A stretch of 64,000 nucleotides of DNA. Origin: Planctomycetaceae bacterium (GTDB lineage: Bacteria; Planctomycetota; Phycisphaerae; Phycisphaerales; SM1A02). The first letter of the stretch is position 1. Each line of letters starts with the position of its first letter. The translations under genes were made by a program, and so were the position numbers. The stretch lies in assembly GCA_947490615.1 (NCBI GenBank), contig CANLHK010000001.1:62001-126000 (forward strand), read 5' to 3'. Shown here in pieces: positions 2,548-40,823 of this stretch. The notes beneath the pieces were generated by a model that worked only from the letters and a program-made list of their open reading frames with translations, had not been told where the DNA came from and searched no databases.

Positions 2548-4143
2548 TCAACGGCGCTCGACGCGGCGGTTCCAGAACTCCAACATCGCGCGTCGCTCCG
2601 TGGCGTTGAGTCGATGCGCATGGCAGGACGCCAACGCAAACGCGCTCAATGCTGCATGGCGCGCGGCTGCCGCCGACTCCTGTGAGGCGCGCTTGAAATG
2701 CTGCGCACTCTCCAACCACGCCGCTTCATGAGAAGGAAGCGGCATCAGGAGCAGTTGCTTGGCCGACAACTTGATCGCCGTCGAGCTCAGCGCGCTTCCT
2801 GCGTAGTGCGCGACGGCGCGTGCAGCGACAATCGGTGAAGCGAGTGCAGCGGCGAGTTGCCACACATCGACTCCCTCACGCGGAGTCACGATGAGCAGCG
2901 GAACCAGTGGCAGAACTTCGCCCCGCGCATCCACCCAGGCCTCGATCACTTTGGTTTGGGTTGCGACAAGGATCTTGGGCACCAGTCGCGTCGTCATCCA
3001 CGCGGACATGACCTTCGACGCCTTGGCCAATCCAACGCGATCCACCGAGGGTTCTTCATAGCGCACTCCCAAGGCGCGCACCGCGCGTGTGCCGTAGTTG
3101 CAATGCGCGAGATCGATGTGTCCGGTCGTCACCAAACGCGGCGCACCACCCTCACGAATGAAACCCGCAAGCCCGTAGTACTGATCGCGAAAGTCCGCCG
3201 TCGCGTAGGCGATGCCGCCGATGGTCCGCTGCGGTGTCTGATGGACCGCGCGTCCGATCGGCGCGCCAAACGCTTCTGCGAGCACATTGGACCACGACTC
3301 GTCACCAATCTTGGGAGCGCTCGTCGACGACGCGAGCGGTTCAAACGAAGCGCCAAACGCGCGTCGAAGTGTGCGCGGACGCCTCGGCGACAAGACCAGC
3401 GTGCAGACGCGCACCGACGCGGCTTCGAAGAGTGACTCGTTGCACGACCAGATCGCGCAGAGATTTGCCTGCGCCAACGCCGCATCGCGCGCCGCACGAG
3501 CATCGCCCGTCGAGAGAAACGACTGCGGCATCACGAAGGCCAAACGCCCACCGCGCGTCAACCTCGAAAGATTCGTCAGGAGAAACGCAGCCGCAAGATC
3601 GGCGTAGCGACGCACCGCTCCATCGGTCGCATCGGCAATGACGCGTGCGCGTTCCCGCGAGGCTGCCGTGCCCTTCTCGAGCTGATTCAGAAACGGCGGA
3701 TTGCCGAGGATCAGATCAAACTTCGCGTCGCCGAGTTGCGCGTCGAGCGTTGGAACAAGCGCATCGTGGACGATGAGGTGTTTGCGGAGTGCAACGGCGA
3801 CCTTCTCGCGCGTGGCCTTCGAAACCCGGGGAGGAAGCAAACCGAGGAGCGCCGAGCGCGCAAGTTTCACAGCGACCGGATCAATGTCGACACCAAACAC
3901 GCGTGTCGAGAGGAAGGCCTGCATCGGCTCTTGAACACGCTGAGCAATCTCCCGCGCCGCAGCAACGAGAAAGTTCCCCGATCCGCAGGCAGGATCAAGG
4001 AGGCGCCAACTTGGCGAGGAGGGTTTCCAGCCGCGCAACGCCTCTGTGACGAGGGCGGACACCAGCGCAGGCGGCGTGTAGTGCGCGCCTTGGGCCTTGC
4101 GCTTGCTGACACCCGCAACCGTGACCGTCGATTCCAACGCCAT
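2548..4143 (-). CDS. N6-adenine DNA methyltransferase-like protein (orphan)
   Basis: 531 residues from the chosen start (548 if the ATG at 4194 is used; neither has a clear Shine-Dalgarno). It belongs to the gamma-type N6 adenine methylase group related to HsdM and Type IIG enzymes. 'GAHYTPPALV' is the usual N-terminal block. Motif I for SAM binding is DPACGSGNF, and catalytic motif IV is GNPPF. 'RLAFVMPQSFLSTGDARAAR' matches the following methylase block, and the C-terminal third probably carries target recognition ('YYGLAGFIREGGAPRLVTTG'). No nuclease domain is fused and no hsdS, hsdR or restriction gene is adjacent, so it is probably a solitary methylase or the remnant of a system. It converges on rplT. 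Confidence 0.8.
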   Translation of the reverse strand: MALESTVTVAGVSKRKAQGAHYTPPALVSALVTEALRGWKPSSPSWRLLDPACGSGNFLVAAAREIAQRVQEPMQAFLSTRVFGVDIDPVAVKLARSALLGLLPPRVSKATREKVAVALRKHLIVHDALVPTLDAQLGDAKFDLILGNPPFLNQLEKGTAASRERARVIADATDGAVRRYADLAAAFLLTNLSRLTRGGRLAFVMPQSFLSTGDARAARDAALAQANLCAIWSCNESLFEAASVRVCTLVLSPRRPRTLRRAFGASFEPLASSTSAPKIGDESWSNVLAEAFGAPIGRAVHQTPQRTIGGIAYATADFRDQYYGLAGFIREGGAPRLVTTGHIDLAHCNYGTRAVRALGVRYEEPSVDRVGLAKASKVMSAWMTTRLVPKILVATQTKVIEAWVDARGEVLPLVPLLIVTPREGVDVWQLAAALASPIVAARAVAHYAGSALSSTAIKLSAKQLLLMPLPSHEAAWLESAQHFKRASQESAAAARHAALSAFALASCHAHRLNATERRAMLEFWNRRVERR

Positions 4144-4343
4144 GAGATGTGTTCGGACAGAGATGGGAGTCCTTGGATGCCCGAGTCTGACCATGCGTGG
4201 ACGCTACCCCGAACGGCGGAGGTTCGCACGGGAAGTATCCCCAGCTGGAGGAATCCTTGCGGTTCTGCAGGCCAAACCGATTGACTTCCCACAGAGGCAC
4301 GCTCTGATGAATAGGTACCCATCACTCAACTCTGGAGGCTGCC

Positions 4344-13913: not shown

Positions 13914-14290
13914 GACAACTGTCCTCCGTGATATGCCGGGACTCCGGCTGGTTCGTTTCGACCGCCCCGCCTTGGGGCGTTCGCGCCCTCCGCGCATGCG
14001 GTGGTCTCTCTCGGTTGCTTGCCGGTCCTCCAGCAAGTCCGAACGATGATGAAGGCGCGTCCTGCACCCAGTGCTTGGCGGGACTGAGGTTCCCGACGCC
14101 GTTGAGATCGGAGGAGCACAGGGGTGACTTCACGGGCAGCCTGCATTTCCCGCCCGATTCGCCGTGGGAAGAGTCGGATGGGGAAAAAGCCCGCCACTTC
14201 TGCGCGTCGCGACGGACCTGCGGACTCGCCCCACGAGTTACCGAGCCGCGACGGCGAGTTCGAGACGGGTTTCGGAAGGCCGATTGAGCC
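13914..14290 (-). other. Long leader/promoter region of the first flagellin gene
   Basis: 377 bases without a gene between the second flagellin's terminator and the first flagellin's start. It must hold the promoter of the first flagellin. I found no convincing sigma-28 (TAAA-N15-GCCGATAA) or sigma-54 element in it. On the minus strand it carries a small hairpin with GGAGGA in the loop (14018-14037) and a GGA-containing Shine-Dalgarno sequence. Confidence 0.5.
13923..13930 (-). promoter_or_regulatory. Putative CsrA site at flagellin-1 ribosome binding site
   Basis: On the minus strand the sequence is CACGGAGG, matching the CsrA core CANGGANG and overlapping the Shine-Dalgarno sequence 9 bases before the start codon. 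A second GGA element, in the loop of a CTTGC/GCAAG hairpin, lies at 14018-14037. Paired sites of this kind allow a CsrA dimer to block ribosome entry. Confidence 0.5.
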
Positions 14291-14373: not shown

Positions 14374-15843
14374 TTACTGGAGGAGCCTGAGCACATTCTG
14401 CGAACTCGAGTTCGCGGTCGCAAGGACCGAGGTGCCGGCCTGCTGAAGGATCTGGGCTCGGGTCATGGCGGCAGTCTCAGCGGCGAAGTCCGTGTCGCGG
14501 ATCTTCGATTCGCTCGAGGTGATGTTCTCAAGACCAACCTGCAAGCTGCGTGAGTTGGTCTGCAGCGTGTTGCGCTCGAAGGCGCCGAGTCGTCCACGAA
14601 GAATCGAAACTTCCGTGATCGCAGCGCTCAGCACATCGCTTGCTTCCGCTGTCCTTCCGAGCGCCAGCGCATTGGGCTGGCCACTCTTGAGACTGTCGAG
14701 GAAGAAGCGCCCGCCTTCGATGGTGGTGCCACCGATGCGGCTCGCCGCCACCGACTTGATGCCGATACCGACTTGTTGCGCGGTGGTGATCGACGGTCCG
14801 AGTTGGAAGGTCGCTCCACCACCCGTGATGTTGAAGTTCGACGGCGTTCCGCTCACGGTCGTCGCAAAGAGATCACTGAGTTCGACATCGATGGCCAACG
14901 CTGGCGTGTTCAAGGCCACCGCGGTGCCGTTGCCGGTCGCCAGGGCACCGTTGATGATCGCCGCCACATCGCGACCTGTGTCACGCTGCGTCGCTGTACC
15001 ACCTGGTGCGCTGTAGGTCTGGAAGAATGCGCCACCCTGTCCAATGCGACGGACCGAGACAAACGAATCGCTGCCGTAGTCGGTCGAGTTGAAGTAGATG
15101 CCTGAGAGCATGCTCGCGCTGTTGCGAAGCGCTGCGCTGATACCTGTCGTGTCGCGCACGGTGTTGACCGCAGCAAGGACGGCGGAGAGCGCGGTGCCCG
15201 ACACAAAGGTCAGCGTCTGCACACCGAGATTGCCCGCGAGTTCAAGCGTGACGCTTGAAGCCAGCGTGCCCGTCGCGGCCGAGAGGAAGAGCTGCCCAGT
15301 TTGCGCGGACTGCGTGACTTCCACCGAGACAGCGATGGAAGGATTGCTTCCAAACTGCACGCCGTGGATGTCCACGCCGTCGATGTCGACCGCGTTGATG
15401 CCGCTCGTGACATACTCCAAGGAGCCATTGAGCAGTTGCAGACCCGCGAACGAAGCCGTGTTGGAAATGCGCGTGATCGATTCGACCGCGCTGTCGATCT
15501 CCAACTGGTTGGCCTGGATTTCCTCTTCGCTGATGCCGCCCGTGTTGGCGCTGTTCACCACGAGACTCTTGATCGAGTTGAGCAGGTCGGCGACCTCGGC
15601 GAGGTAGCCTTCGGTCGTTGCGATGACCGAGCTTGCGCGCTCCGAGTTGTCGATCGCTTGTCCGATGCCCCTGATCTCCGAACGCAAGCGCTCGGACACA
15701 ATCAGGCCAGCGGGATCATCGGCGCCGCGGTTGATCCGCAGGCCAGTGGCGAGGCGTTGGAGGCGAGTAGAGAGGTCGACATTCGATCGCGCGAGGTTGT
15801 TCTGTGCGATGAGCGACGGGACGTTGGTATTGATGCGAGCCAT
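14374..15843 (-). CDS. Flagellin (second copy)
   Basis: 489 residues from ATG 15843 with the strong ribosome binding site AAGGAGGA; the ORF-track start runs back through csrA. N-terminus MARINTNVPSLIAQNNLARS and 'RLATGLRINRGADDPAGLIV'; C-terminus 'SILRGRLGAFERNTLQTNSR', 'ESKIRDTDFAAETAAMTRAQ', ending 'ANSSSQNVLRLLQ'. It is clearly paralogous to the first flagellin at both ends but diverged in the central surface domain. The gene starts 28 bases after the csrA stop. The ribosome binding site is CAAGGAGG, again matching the CsrA core, so the filament protein and its likely translational repressor are made from one transcript. Confidence 0.95.
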   Translation of the reverse strand: MARINTNVPSLIAQNNLARSNVDLSTRLQRLATGLRINRGADDPAGLIVSERLRSEIRGIGQAIDNSERASSVIATTEGYLAEVADLLNSIKSLVVNSANTGGISEEEIQANQLEIDSAVESITRISNTASFAGLQLLNGSLEYVTSGINAVDIDGVDIHGVQFGSNPSIAVSVEVTQSAQTGQLFLSAATGTLASSVTLELAGNLGVQTLTFVSGTALSAVLAAVNTVRDTTGISAALRNSASMLSGIYFNSTDYGSDSFVSVRRIGQGGAFFQTYSAPGGTATQRDTGRDVAAIINGALATGNGTAVALNTPALAIDVELSDLFATTVSGTPSNFNITGGGATFQLGPSITTAQQVGIGIKSVAASRIGGTTIEGGRFFLDSLKSGQPNALALGRTAEASDVLSAAITEVSILRGRLGAFERNTLQTNSRSLQVGLENITSSESKIRDTDFAAETAAMTRAQILQQAGTSVLATANSSSQNVLRLLQ

Positions 15844-15849
15844 GGCAAT

Positions 15850-15857
15850 CCTCCTTG
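15850..15857 (-). promoter_or_regulatory. Putative CsrA site at flagellin-2 ribosome binding site
   Basis: Minus-strand CAAGGAGG matches CANGGANG and is itself the Shine-Dalgarno sequence, 6 bases from the flagellin start codon. Confidence 0.5.
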
Positions 15858-15871
15858 ACTGAGAGGCCCGG

Positions 15872-16183
15872 TCAGGCGGTCTCGCGCCTGCTGGTCTGGG
15901 TTGCCGCGAGCTTCGCGGCTGTGGGCAGGACCGTCCCGCCCGAGGGAGCCTTCGCGCCGCGTGCATGCGCACGAGGACGAAGTAAGCCGAGTTCACCGCG
16001 GAACGCCGCAGCTTGCTCGTTCTCATTCTTGATGGCGTCGTACACCTCTTTGCGGTGCACAGCCACTGTTGCAGGCGCTTTGATGCCGATTCGCACCTTG
16101 TCGCCTCGAATGTCCACGATCGTGAGTTCGACGTCATCGCCGATCATGATCGTTTCGTCGATCTGCCTGGAGAGCACCAGCAT
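15872..16183 (-). CDS. csrA: Carbon storage regulator CsrA with C-terminal extension
   Basis: 103 residues; CsrA is normally 60-75. The first 60 residues are canonical: [17 protein letters not shown], '[22 protein letters not shown]'. The RNA-contacting residues L4, R6 and R44 are all present. The additional ~40 residues are basic and Pro/Ala-rich ([12 protein letters not shown]...), and could be disordered RNA-binding sequence or a FliW contact. CsrA homodimers bind GGA motifs in mRNA leaders and block or stabilise them. Gene order fliW-csrA-flagellin and GGA motifs in the relevant leaders strongly suggest control of flagellin synthesis, as worked out for Hag in Bacillus subtilis. Its own leader holds three CANGGANG motifs, suggesting autoregulation. 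Confidence 0.95.
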
Positions 16184-16194
16184 GATGCGGGCTC

Positions 16195-16234
16195 CTTCCT
16201 TGTGGGCATCCGTGCCCGTGAGAGTTCATCCATG
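16195..16234 (-). promoter_or_regulatory. Cluster of three CsrA-type motifs in the csrA leader
   Basis: Reading the minus strand towards csrA there are CATGGATG (16234-16227), CACGGATG (16214-16207) and CAAGGAAG (16202-16195). Each matches CANGGANG. The middle one sits in a perfect small hairpin GGGCA-CGGA-TGCCC (16217-16204) that presents GGA in the loop, the preferred CsrA geometry. The last one overlaps the csrA ribosome binding site. Confidence 0.65.
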
Positions 16235-16288
16235 TCACGCTGGCATTTGCCAGCACGCCATCTATCCCGGACTGACACAACGCACGCG

Positions 16289-16735
16289 TCAGGCGATCTT
16301 GGCGACCGCGGTCTCCGCGATCTTCACCAACTCGTGGCGGGTCGACCACTTCTTCTCGGCAAGCACCAGCTGCATCGCCGTGCGATTGCCGCTGTTCACC
16401 ACCAAGGGACCCTGAAGGTTCGCGGTGAGCGACTGGTCGCGCTTGTTCACGATCACGAGCACCTGGGCATCCGCGATCTCGCGCAATCCGAGTTCGTCCA
16501 TCTGCTCTTTGCGAATGTTGGCTTGGAAGTCCGGCAGCCAGAGGGCTGGGTCGGTGACCACGAACGCGAGATCCGCGCTCTCGGTCGATTGCAGCCAGAA
16601 GAACACGCCGTTCTCGTCGGGCTGCAGCAAAGCGAACTTCTTGTAGCTCGAGAAGCCCAGCAATCCGCCGGGGAACTCGAGGGTGCGCGACTCGTCGATG
16701 TCGACAGGGCCAAAGCGCGTGGTCTGGATCAGCAT
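16289..16735 (-). CDS. fliW: Flagellar assembly factor FliW
   Basis: 148 residues from ATG 16735 (MLIQTTRFGPVDIDESRTLE), the family's normal length and start; the ORF-track start adds 26 residues. Typical blocks are 'FPGGLLGFSSYKKFALL', 'FFWLQSTESADLAFVVTDP' and 'NLQGPLVVNSGNRTAMQLVL'. FliW binds either CsrA or free flagellin: when flagellin accumulates it takes FliW, freeing CsrA to repress flagellin translation. Here fliW, csrA and a flagellin gene follow one another on one strand (gaps 105 and 28 bases), behind flgL. All elements of the partner switch are thus in one operon. Confidence 0.95.
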   Translation of the reverse strand: MLIQTTRFGPVDIDESRTLEFPGGLLGFSSYKKFALLQPDENGVFFWLQSTESADLAFVVTDPALWLPDFQANIRKEQMDELGLREIADAQVLVIVNKRDQSLTANLQGPLVVNSGNRTAMQLVLAEKKWSTRHELVKIAETAVAKIA

Positions 16736-16872
16736 GTCCTGTGCTCCATGCGGCCTTCCAATCCTTGGAGTCTGGCATCCATGCCAGTCGGGCTCCATCC
16801 CTGGTCCGATCAAAGGGGCCGTACCCTCGATCAGTGAACCGCGCTTCCGCGCGGGTTGTGTGCTGTGCTGTG

Positions 16873-18852
16873 CTAGCGAAGGTAGTCAAGGAGGCTCAGA
16901 TTCACTGCCTTGGCGGCTCCCGCGAGTCCTGCCTCCAGCTGTTGCTGAAGATTGGCAAATCGCGTCGCTGCCTGCGTGAAGTCGAGATCCTGAATACTCG
17001 ATCGCAACGCCATGTCCTGAATGCCGAGGTCTTCCTCGCGGACCGCCGACTCTGCGACGCGCCGCGAGCGGACTCCAACATCAGCACGCGCTTTCGCTGC
17101 GAGTGAGATGTCAGACTCCAATTTGCCAGTTGCAAACTCGATGCCACGCTGGTCGTTGCTCTGCAACGCCTCGCGCAAGGCAATGAGGTGCGAAAACACA
17201 CTGTCCACGGCAACAAGTGCGCGATCAGTGCCCACCAAACTTGCCGTGCTGCTGGTGCCCGCAATTCCCAGATCGGTCGCGGTCCCGCTGTTGTTGATGT
17301 CCGTGACAACGAGGGAAGCTCCGATGGTCGCATCGGTGAGTTCAATGCCGTTGCCCGTCGTGGTGAGAGAGGCGCTGAACTCTGCAGGCGTGATGCCTGC
17401 CGCCAGCGCAGCCGCATTGATCTGATCGAGGACATCTTGCACCGTGGCAGCGCCATCGATGTCGACTTCGAAAGTGCGCCCGTCCTTCACCGTCACGCGG
17501 AAGTCGCGGTCGGCGGCTGGATCGGGAAGACCCGTGAGTGGATCGACCGAACCATCGATCTGCGAGACGCCGCGACCCTCGTTGAAGTCCGCGAGCCGCG
17601 TGCCGCCGCTGAACGATCGGAGGCCGAGTTCACTGGCGGTAGTGCCGCCAATCTCCTCGATCGCCATCGTGGTGCCCGAGAGTTCATTGCGAATGTTGAG
17701 GCGAGTTCCATCTTCGGCGATCTCGACGCGCGCGCCGATTCCCGCACTGGTGACGGCGTTCTGGAAGTCCTGAATCGTCGTAAGCGCGCCAAGGTCGATG
17801 CGCCGCGTCTGACCGCCGTTCCTGAGCATGATTTCGCCGAGAGGCAGCGTCATGCCTGAGAGCGAGTCGAGTCGAGTCAGCGGCGTGATCTTCGGATCGA
17901 GATCCATGCCCGAGGTCGTCGCGCCGCCTGGATAGGTCCCTTGAAGGCCAAGGTCCCCCGCCGCGGTCGATGAGTTCGAATCGCGGATGATGACGCTGAT
18001 CCCCAAGGACGGCGTGATGGCGATGCGGTCCCCCGTGGCCGCGTCAATCCCCACGGTCGCGCCTGGGTCGGTCGCCTGAATGACCGTCGTGAGTGCGGTG
18101 AGGACATCCCCCACGGAGTCCGCATCGGACAGGTCGAGTTGCGAGACCGTCCCGTTCACATCGATTTCGATGACTCCAGCTCGGACGCCGTTTCCGTTGG
18201 CGCCGCGAAGTTCCGAGAGCCGCGTGGCTGCCACCATCGACGGATCGAGGTCACGCTCACCTTCGACGCGTCCTGAGAGCGCGCCGAAGGCAGCCTCTGC
18301 GCCGATCGTGACTCGCACATCCGAGGCCAAGCCGAGATCGCCAAGCATGCCCTCGCCACCGCCGATGTAGCGCACACCGCCGAGAAGCGAGGTAAAGGGT
18401 GCTTCGCTGTGACGATCCCCACCAAAGAAGTGAATCCCGCGAAGGTCGCGGTTGGCCACCGAAAGGAGCGAGTTGAGCATCGAGTCGATGACCGTGGCCT
18501 GGTTCTGCCGCGTCGCCTGGTCGCTGCCGACACCGATCTGAGAGAGCCCGATGCCGCGCGCCTCCTGCAAGAGGTCGCTCACATCGCCAATCGAGTTGTC
18601 GAGGGCGTTCAGCGTGGCGTCGGCCTGGCTGAGATTTCGCGTCCGCTGCTCACGCCGCTCGATCGCATCTTCCAAGACGCTCACCGTCGAAGCGCCGATG
18701 GCGTTCTCTGACGGCCGCGTGAATTCCTTTCCCGCAGCAAGCCGAACCTGGAGAAGCAGGAACTCGCGATTAGTCTTCTGAACACCCGACAGGGCAATTC
18801 TCGACGCTAGAGCATTCGGAACGCGCGCGAGGTTGGCAGGAATTGCACCCAT
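16873..18852 (-). CDS. flgL: Flagellar hook-filament junction protein FlgL (large form)
   Basis: 659 residues from ATG 18852 (MGAIPANLARVPNALASRIA), about twice the common FlgL length. FlgL forms the junction ring between hook and filament. The conserved N-terminal part is seen in 'LQVRLAAGKEFTRPSENAIGAST' and 'RNLSQADATLNALDNSIGDV'. The C-terminal helix 'EEDLGIQDMALRSSIQDLDF' then 'QAATRFANLQQQLEAGLAG' is canonical. The insertion (about 150-560) contains repeated beta modules of flagellin-hook-IN type, each ending near 'ATDLGIAGT' or 'AGDLGLQGT'. A sigma-54-type promoter lies 23 bases before the start, so this gene probably heads the flgL-fliW-csrA-flagellin operon. The longer ORF-track start runs through the promoter and is rejected. 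Confidence 0.92.
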   Translation of the reverse strand: MGAIPANLARVPNALASRIALSGVQKTNREFLLLQVRLAAGKEFTRPSENAIGASTVSVLEDAIERREQRTRNLSQADATLNALDNSIGDVSDLLQEARGIGLSQIGVGSDQATRQNQATVIDSMLNSLLSVANRDLRGIHFFGGDRHSEAPFTSLLGGVRYIGGGEGMLGDLGLASDVRVTIGAEAAFGALSGRVEGERDLDPSMVAATRLSELRGANGNGVRAGVIEIDVNGTVSQLDLSDADSVGDVLTALTTVIQATDPGATVGIDAATGDRIAITPSLGISVIIRDSNSSTAAGDLGLQGTYPGGATTSGMDLDPKITPLTRLDSLSGMTLPLGEIMLRNGGQTRRIDLGALTTIQDFQNAVTSAGIGARVEIAEDGTRLNIRNELSGTTMAIEEIGGTTASELGLRSFSGGTRLADFNEGRGVSQIDGSVDPLTGLPDPAADRDFRVTVKDGRTFEVDIDGAATVQDVLDQINAAALAAGITPAEFSASLTTTGNGIELTDATIGASLVVTDINNSGTATDLGIAGTSSTASLVGTDRALVAVDSVFSHLIALREALQSNDQRGIEFATGKLESDISLAAKARADVGVRSRRVAESAVREEDLGIQDMALRSSIQDLDFTQAATRFANLQQQLEAGLAGAAKAVNLSLLDYLR

Positions 18853-18874
18853 GGGAGGATCTCCAACCCAAGGG

Positions 18875-18890
18875 AGCAAGGGGTGTGCCG
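18875..18890 (-). promoter_or_regulatory. Sigma-54 (-24/-12) promoter of the flgL operon
   Basis: Minus-strand CGGCACACCCCTTGCT. It has GG and GC 10 bases apart and matches GGCAC-N5-TTGC of the RpoN consensus. The predicted transcript start is about 12 bases before the flgL ATG, which gives a very short leader that still includes the GGAG ribosome binding site. Confidence 0.65.
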
Positions 18891-19009
18891 CTCCGTAATC
18901 ACGGCGCCCATCGCCTCCAATTGATCCGCGGTCCGCGGAACCGGGTCTGAGAAACCAAATCACGGAGCGAAGTAGGGTGAAATCCCCCGAAGGGCTGCAT
19001 GGCGAAGCA

Positions 19010-19346
19010 GTTCTGTCGCACTTCCTAGTGAGTCCTTCCGGGCTTCGCCGCGAAAGCGGCACAGAGAATTCGAGCAGTGAGTTGAGAATGTGAGACCTGC
19101 AACCAAGCGATTCGTTCGGGGCAACAACCGGATCGCTTGGTGTGTGGGGTGTGCTGAGGTGGTTCAATCGATCGCTGGCTGCTAGTGGTGAGCCTTGTGG
19201 TCGAACCGCCTCAATGCCGCTCCAACGGGGGCTGGTCTCCGCTTGTGTCTTGGACGTGCGATCACGTCCCGTACGTCCTAGACAGAAGTCTCAACGACAC
19301 GCCGATTACATCGCGCCGACGAGCAATCGTCGGCGCGTCTGTTTTT
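19010..19346 (+). ncRNA. Candidate structured non-coding RNA, copy A
   Basis: No credible ORF. The + strand folds into a series of hairpins ending in an intrinsic terminator. These are GCCGC-GAAA-GCGGC (19047-19060, GNRA loop), CCAAGCGAT/ATCGCTTGG (19103-19140), the 11-bp stem TGAGGTGGTTC/GAACCGCCTCA (19155-19213), and GTCTTGGACGT/ACGTCCTAGAC with one T-T mismatch (19247-19283), which competes with a local GGACGTG/CACGTCC hairpin. Wobble pairs fit only the + strand. Copy B, 505 bases downstream, is collinear: the shared GTCGCACTTCC lies 297 and 293 bases before the two terminators, and a related TTGAGxATG block and a GCCTCA block follow at matching distances. The 5' end is uncertain and may be near 18950. 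No match to tmRNA, RNase P, 6S or SRP RNA is apparent. Confidence 0.55.
19312..19346 (+). terminator. Intrinsic terminator of RNA copy A
   Basis: Perfect 11-bp stem CGCGCCGACGA/TCGTCGGCGCG with a GCAA tetraloop, then TCTGTTTTT. It is closely similar to the 19813-19848 terminator. Confidence 0.88.
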
Positions 19347-39941: not shown

Positions 39942-40823
39942 ATGCTCTGGCAACGACTCATCACCGGCCCGCTGCTCATCGCGCTGATTCTTGGCGTGGT
40001 GTGGTTCGATGGATCGTTGGACGACTTCGCACAGGAGCGTGGACTGCCCCATGGTCTGCTTCTCCTGCTCTTCGCCCTCGTGCTGTCCCTTTTGATCGCG
40101 CGGGAACTCACGGCGTTCTTGCGCGCCGCGGGGATGAGGACATCGCTCGCAGCGACTTCTTGCGCCGCTCTCCTAGGACTTCTTGCAACCGCGGCCAGCC
40201 CGCAGCTTGGTGCTGTACGCGCCGACAGCGCAGGCATCGCGGCCACGGGATTCACGCTCATGTTGCTGGTCGCGCTGGTCGTCATGGCGCGCGGGCGCGA
40301 TCCCAAGGGCTCACTCATGCTCGCGGGAGGAACTCTCCTTGCTGGCGTTTACGGCGGCGTGCTGCTGGGATTCTGGATCCTCGTGCGCGAGGAACACTCG
40401 CCATGGATCGTCGTCGGCGCGATTCTGACCACCAAGAGTTGCGACATCGGCGCGTACTTCACAGGCCGAGCGATTGGTCGCCACAAACTCATTCCGTGGC
40501 TCTCGCCCAAGAAGACCTGGGAAGGACTTGTCGGCGGCGTCATCGTCGCGACGAGTGTCGGCGCTGCGCTCGCGCATCTCACCATGACACACGGCACAGA
40601 AGGTGATCGCATCCCTTGGTGGATCGGCGCGCTTGGTGGTGCCTTGGTTGCGGTGATTGGACAGGCGGGCGATCTCGCGGAGAGTTCCTTCAAGCGCGAC
40701 AGCGGACTGAAGGATTCAGGAAATCTCCTGCCAGGAATGGGCGGAGTGCTTGATGTGCTCGATAGCCCGCTGTTTGCAGGCCCCGTCGTCTACTGGCTGC
40801 TGCGCCTCGCGCCATTGAGTTGA
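39942..40823 (+). CDS. cdsA: Phosphatidate cytidylyltransferase
   Basis: 293 residues with about seven membrane segments. It makes CDP-diacylglycerol from phosphatidate and CTP for phospholipid synthesis. The C-terminal signature reads SSFKRDSGLKDSGNLLPGMG then GVLDVLDS. Compared with the PROSITE pattern (S-x-x-K-R-x4-K-D-x-x-x-x-x-P-G-H-G-G-x-x-D-R-x-D), H is replaced by M and R by V. The metal- and CTP-binding Asp and Lys residues are otherwise kept. 'KSCDIGAYFTGRAIGRHKL' and 'SPKKTWEGLVGG' are canonical. The variant is probably lineage-specific and active. Confidence 0.9.
   Translation: MLWQRLITGPLLIALILGVVWFDGSLDDFAQERGLPHGLLLLLFALVLSLLIARELTAFLRAAGMRTSLAATSCAALLGLLATAASPQLGAVRADSAGIAATGFTLMLLVALVVMARGRDPKGSLMLAGGTLLAGVYGGVLLGFWILVREEHSPWIVVGAILTTKSCDIGAYFTGRAIGRHKLIPWLSPKKTWEGLVGGVIVATSVGAALAHLTMTHGTEGDRIPWWIGALGGALVAVIGQAGDLAESSFKRDSGLKDSGNLLPGMGGVLDVLDSPLFAGPVVYWLLRLAPLS

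Follow-up and report, generated by a model that had tools for sequence, protein, structure and literature searches.

The 105-nt leader of csrA in a flagellar locus of the Phycisphaerae is probably a CsrA-binding translational operator, through which CsrA would repress its own translation within a CsrA-FliW-flagellin circuit. The locus lies in a 64,000-nucleotide stretch of DNA (hereafter the window) from a 3.26-Mb draft genome, where open reading frames and Pfam domains give the gene order flgK, flgL, fliW, csrA, fliC1, and fliC2 on the minus strand. The class is called Phycisphaerae here after the labels of the relatives (mostly Planctomycetota MAGs and one Phycisphaera), not by formal placement. 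The following genes and intergenic region, all on the minus strand, frame the leader.

14374..15843, minus strand: flagellin gene fliC1, 489 aa (domain match)
15872..16183, minus strand: csrA, 103 aa, PF02599, encoding the putative binder (open reading frame and domain match)
16184..16288, minus strand: csrA 5' leader, the 105-nt fliW-csrA intergenic region, from the fliW stop to the csrA ATG
16289..16735, minus strand: fliW, 148 aa, PF02623, encoding the putative CsrA antagonist (domain match)
16873..19167, minus strand: flgL-like hook-associated protein gene (open reading frame limits; the true start is probably internal)

No csrA start codon farther upstream in frame occurs in the fliW-csrA gap. 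The solved structure closest to the encoded protein is the CsrA chain of 5dmb, with an alignment that runs through the EN-containing C-terminal helix, and the RNA-binding core is retained as in that chain. The target of a CsrA dimer is a pair of GGAs, with a preference for those in hairpin loops, and a dimer bound over the Shine-Dalgarno (SD) sequence blocks translation (PMC7652899). A preliminary description of this DNA had reported three such motifs within 40 nt upstream of csrA, and all three are exact matches on the minus strand.

16227..16234, minus strand: GGA site 1, CATGGATG (exact motif match; predicted mostly unpaired)
16204..16217, minus strand: hairpin GGGCA(16217-16213)-CGGA-TGCCC(16208-16204) around site 2 (perfect, 5 bp; present in the predicted fold)
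16207..16214, minus strand: GGA site 2, CACGGATG (exact motif match; GGA in the hairpin loop)
16195..16202, minus strand: GGA site 3, CAAGGAAG (exact motif match; overlaps the SD)
16192..16202, minus strand: site 3 together with the Shine-Dalgarno, CAAGGAAGGAG (sequence)

The claim that the middle motif is displayed in a perfect GGGCA-CGGA-TGCCC hairpin holds to the letter, also in the predicted fold, and the 3' end of this hairpin stands 20 nt from the ATG. The last motif was said to cover the ribosome binding site, and site 3 (16202-16195) indeed overlaps the SD AAGGAAGGAG (16201-16192), whose core GGAG lies 8 nt from the ATG. Over the whole window CANGGANG shows no general enrichment, with 44 occurrences vs. 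40.7 expected. The densest cluster is the one of three in 40 nt, a number reached by 0 of 800 shuffled strands (two were reached by 115 of 800), and the density was thus rightly described as far above expectation. Among 16 sequences of the genus there is no variation in the GGA of site 1, of site 2, or of the SD core. The 8-mer of site 3 varies there, with L008, L011-L013, and L025 lacking its first GGA and keeping the AGGAG core; this third 8-mer owes its presence partly to the SD and is the least independent and least conserved of the three. The folding energy of the window's csrA leader is ordinary (z -0.30), and the case therefore rests on comparison, not on energy. Mean folding z values over the order were -1.3, -1.0, and -0.6 for the fliW, csrA, and fliC leaders, respectively; these are too weak, and folding energy alone was dropped as an argument.

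The comparison covered 90 fliW-csrA loci of the order, in about 80 of which fliW, csrA, and flagellin are adjacent; a loop hairpin was defined by a stem of at least 5 bp. A GGA in a hairpin loop was found in 68 of the 90 csrA leaders, against 12.3 in shuffles (maximum 19), which ignore relatedness, and in 14% of control slices from coding sequence. Among all 64 triplets, GGA ranks first in the hairpin loops of the csrA, fliW, and fliC leaders, and in csrA-leader loops the permuted triplets are much scarcer (GAG in 24 leaders, AGG in 32). For a stem test unbiased by the stems themselves, the upstream GGA was chosen on the letters of CANGGANG alone and pairing was scored afterwards. Pairing amounted to 61% in register vs. 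32-37% when slid, and the pairing observed over six consecutive outer pairs of the stem was reached by 0 of 1000 shuffles, each of these pairs occurring in several Watson-Crick types. Apart from the SD, 65 of 87 csrA leaders contain a GGA hairpin whose stem has at least 5 bp, with 50 different 5' arms; examples of exchanged stems are GCCCCGACA-CGGA-TGTCGGGGC (L104) and CGCGACAC-ACGGAC-GTGTCGCG (L109). Replacement of the stem with both the pairing and the loop GGA kept is the pattern expected if selection acts to present a GGA in a loop. Within the genus of the window no covariation of the csrA hairpin was seen, because it barely varies there. No recognisable csrA hairpin was found in the order members L086, L098, L100, and L106 and in the group L092/L093/L095/L101. 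The SD AGGAAGGAGCC is conserved across the order and the class.

These data contradict an account by chance and a strong SD, according to which purine-rich ribosome sites simply tend to contain GGA and the hairpin has no significance of its own. The overlap of the third motif with the SD, the fact that it is not kept as an 8-mer in the genus, and the ordinary folding energy would suit such an account, but the absence of comparable clusters from the shuffled strands, the conservation of the upstream hairpins through stem replacement, and the scarcity of GAG and AGG in csrA loops make it extremely improbable. The preliminary description had itself named a lack of GGA conservation in relatives as evidence against its proposal; this was examined and did not occur, since GGA hairpins are kept in the order, where their stems are replaced, and in the class. 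The observation on the csrA leader is real, and its reading as autoregulation is very likely right: the relatives support it strongly, with binding and repression by CsrA predicted from sequence.

A separate question is which protein would bind. A second, divergent CsrA-like gene was noticed in L002 (1459-1734), near frames that by eye are NifU-like and MraZ-like. A distant CsrA-like gene occurs in 20 of 20 genomes examined, including non-flagellated ones, so that such a paralog, or some other protein, might bind the GGA hairpins, and the leader of the flagellar csrA would escape control by its own product. We consider this improbable, as only the paralog is kept where FliW and flagellin are missing, which suggests that the flagellar csrA is lost along with its partners, and as the csrA-leader hairpins track flagellin. 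In seven genomes of the order fliW and csrA are kept and no flagellin domain was detected in the assembly (L031, L052, L059, L066, L071, L072, and L096, from genomes G054, G033, G019, G049, G040, G051, and G072). The csrA-leader GGA hairpin is absent in 7 of these 7 and present in 67 of the 82 others (Fisher p 2.5e-5); L030 (G018), whose contig ends before fliC, was left out, and counting it as flagellin-less gives p 1.5e-4. The flagellin-less label changes at least five separate times on the FliW tree, and the hairpin loss is thus not that of one lineage. The csrA leaders of these genomes are shorter (12-88 nt), which contributes to the absence of the hairpin, and the fliW-leader hairpins persist in 6 of the 7.

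The flagellar CsrA thus remains the favored binder, and the fliW leader offers it further putative targets. This leader carries several GGA hairpins and an apparently new pseudoknot beside the start codon.

16736..16840, minus strand: fliW 5' leader, a structured RNA with several GGA hairpins (comparison; no Rfam match)
16806..16834, minus strand: P1 hairpin CTGATCGAGGG-TACGGCC-CCTTTGATCGG (9 of 11 pairs changed on both sides in the genus)
16817..16821, minus strand: 5' arm of the pseudoknot, CGGCC, in the P1 loop (complementarity test)
16790..16801, minus strand: hairpin GGG-ATGGAG-CCC (GGG, GGA, and CCC columns invariant in the genus)
16772..16787, minus strand: GGA hairpin CTGGCA-TGGA-TGCCAG (4 of 6 pairs changed on both sides; 100% paired)
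16758..16768, minus strand: GGA hairpin CCAA-GGA-TTGG (sequence; a ACCAGGATGG-type counterpart across the order)
16751..16755, minus strand: 3' arm of the pseudoknot, GGCCG, just 5' of the fliW SD (complementarity test)
16744..16747, minus strand: fliW Shine-Dalgarno GGAG (sequence)

The fliW leader is denser in GGA sites than the csrA leader, with 536 GGAs in 81 leaders vs. 357 expected, and 70 of the 81 have a GGA hairpin vs. 16.2 when shuffled; the preliminary description had overlooked both this and the GGA hairpin at the flagellin SD. In the genus, the P1 stem and the GGA hairpin have 17 pairs between them, 13 of which changed on both sides, with a covariation score of 0.477 vs. 0.198 shuffled and at most 0.157 slid. 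In most leaders the pairing partner of the P1 loop is a stretch that ends 12-22 nt upstream of the fliW start. A general test of upstream-downstream complementarity was weaker (17.9 vs. 16.8 swapped, best swap 17.95); the signal became clear once the test was restricted to the P1 loop, where complementarity within the own leader was 15.7 vs. 13.6 with swapped leaders (sd 0.25), the own value being higher in all 5000 permutations. Alternative pairs are seen in other leaders, for example CGGUC/GACCG, CGGCU/AGCCG, GGGCC/GGCCC, and, in L102, GUGGCC/GGCCAC. An Rfam search returned only chance-level matches, none above the gathering score. A covariance model built on the leader finds it once per genus genome, with no convincing match to a second copy in these genomes; the model lost most of the order and is thus useful at the genus level only.

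It is conceivable, and we propose it tentatively, that Phycisphaerae have in the fliW leader a structured RNA not described before, in which a loop-to-start pseudoknot encloses GGA hairpins. As a switch that senses CsrA, or as a sponge, it would place the antagonist of CsrA, CsrA itself, and flagellin all under CsrA control. If true, translational coupling as in Bacillus would here give way to a double-negative loop on fliW combined with csrA negative autoregulation. The fliW leader resembles sponge RNAs in its many GGA hairpins 5' of the SD, and C. jejuni flaA mRNA is described as a flagellin mRNA with two functions within the CsrA-FliW network (PMC4894983). Both features would agree with a csrA leader that is a CsrA site and chiefly activates csrA, stabilises its mRNA, or titrates CsrA as a sponge. 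The layout of the csrA leader, with its last GGA in the SD and its hairpin close upstream of the ATG, is that of a repressor site, and such a role is unlikely, although less so than binding by another protein. Repression of csrA by CsrA thus remains the preferred reading.

The flagellin leader bears the third set of predicted CsrA sites.

15847..15860, minus strand: flagellin SD hairpin AGTC-AAGGAG-GATT; the fliC start codon follows after 3 nt (sequence and comparison)

A GGA hairpin is present in 70 of 81 fliC leaders vs. 7.9 shuffled, and across the order and the class the loop of an AAUC-AAGGAG-GAUU hairpin presents the flagellin SD. The stem is mostly conserved in sequence, with a few exchanged versions, for example in L104 (ACAAAC/GUUUGU), L156 (CAGUC/GACUG), and L158 (ACAAC/GUUGU); double changes are too few, and a claim of strong covariation for this hairpin was dropped. 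The second flagellin gene, fliC2, has CACGGAGG at its SD (window 13914-13930, minus strand) and shows no clear hairpin like that of fliC1.

A separate csrA leader looks, from sequence comparison, like a trait of the class, nearly restricted to it. Flagellin-bearing members of the order have fliW-csrA gaps of 54-498 nt, and 38 class members beyond the order have the same gene order, with gaps of 99-483 nt. In these 38, loop GGAs are enriched in the leaders of csrA (39 vs. 8.5), fliW (51 vs. 9), and fliC (49 vs. 4). In the rest of the phylum, the usual arrangement is an overlap of the two genes, often of 14 nt, or a gap of less than 30 nt. Exceptions outside the class are L122, L188, L193, L198, and L200, with gaps of 66-97 nt. 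Family f73 (L197 and L199), also outside the class, has long fliW-csrA gaps and the AGGAAGGAGCC SD, which might reflect transfer or an ancestral state.

In the proposed mechanism, one RNA pocket of a CsrA dimer would hold the GGA of the hairpin loop in the csrA leader, presumably transcribed as drawn, and the other either the SD GGA or upstream site 1. The ribosome would thereby be kept off csrA and CsrA synthesis would limit itself. The same CsrA would have binding sites in the other two leaders, namely the GGA hairpins of fliW and the hairpin displaying the flagellin SD, and FliW free of flagellin would remove CsrA from all three leaders.

The proposed circuit is of a known kind in a different form, and the apparently new fliW-leader pseudoknot is its most novel part. 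E. coli CsrA represses translation from its own leader (Yakhnin et al. 2011, as reviewed in PMC7652899), which likewise has several GGA sites with one over the SD; self-repression is demonstrated there and proposed here. E. coli uses the CsrB/C sRNAs and has no FliW, whereas here csrA belongs to a fliW-csrA-fliC locus with a class-wide hairpin. The partners FliW, CsrA, and flagellin are those of the Hag-FliW-CsrA system of B. subtilis, in which the flagellin SD is a CsrA target (PMC6529632, PMC7652899), as is predicted here. In B. subtilis, fliW overlaps csrA and translational coupling fixes the stoichiometry (PMC6529632). Such an overlap is absent at the window locus, where the genes are separated and each has a leader with GGA hairpins. 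C. jejuni CsrA binds, by preference, AAGGA in hairpin loops (PMC4894983), with flagellin mRNA as a main target and FliW, not an sRNA, as the antagonist, an arrangement like the one predicted here for CsrA, FliW, and flagellin (flaA in C. jejuni); a text search of that paper found neither an autoregulatory csrA leader nor a fliW-leader target. Searches of open-access PMC text yielded no study of CsrA in planctomycetes and none that places CsrA sites on fliW.

According to a prediction by Oshiro et al., additional systems have to limit FliW-CsrA levels (PMC6529632). Phycisphaerae appear to solve this stoichiometry otherwise, through separate, putatively CsrA-responsive leaders on three genes, which would stand in for the Bacillus overlap and coupling in fixing the FliW:CsrA ratio. 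The logic of flagellin homeostasis can thus be tested by comparing coupled with uncoupled lineages, and the analysis yields likely, covariation-supported CsrA sites in Planctomycetota together with a candidate new structured RNA.

Two further observations concern the window itself. An alternative pairing of the GGGC in the csrA hairpin, with a GCCC directly after the SD (GGAGCCCG; 16192-16217, minus strand), would enclose the SD; it is a possible switch, but L015 lacks the GCCC. Further dense GGA stretches with loop hairpins occur at 40621-40760 and 4141-4280, both on the plus strand.
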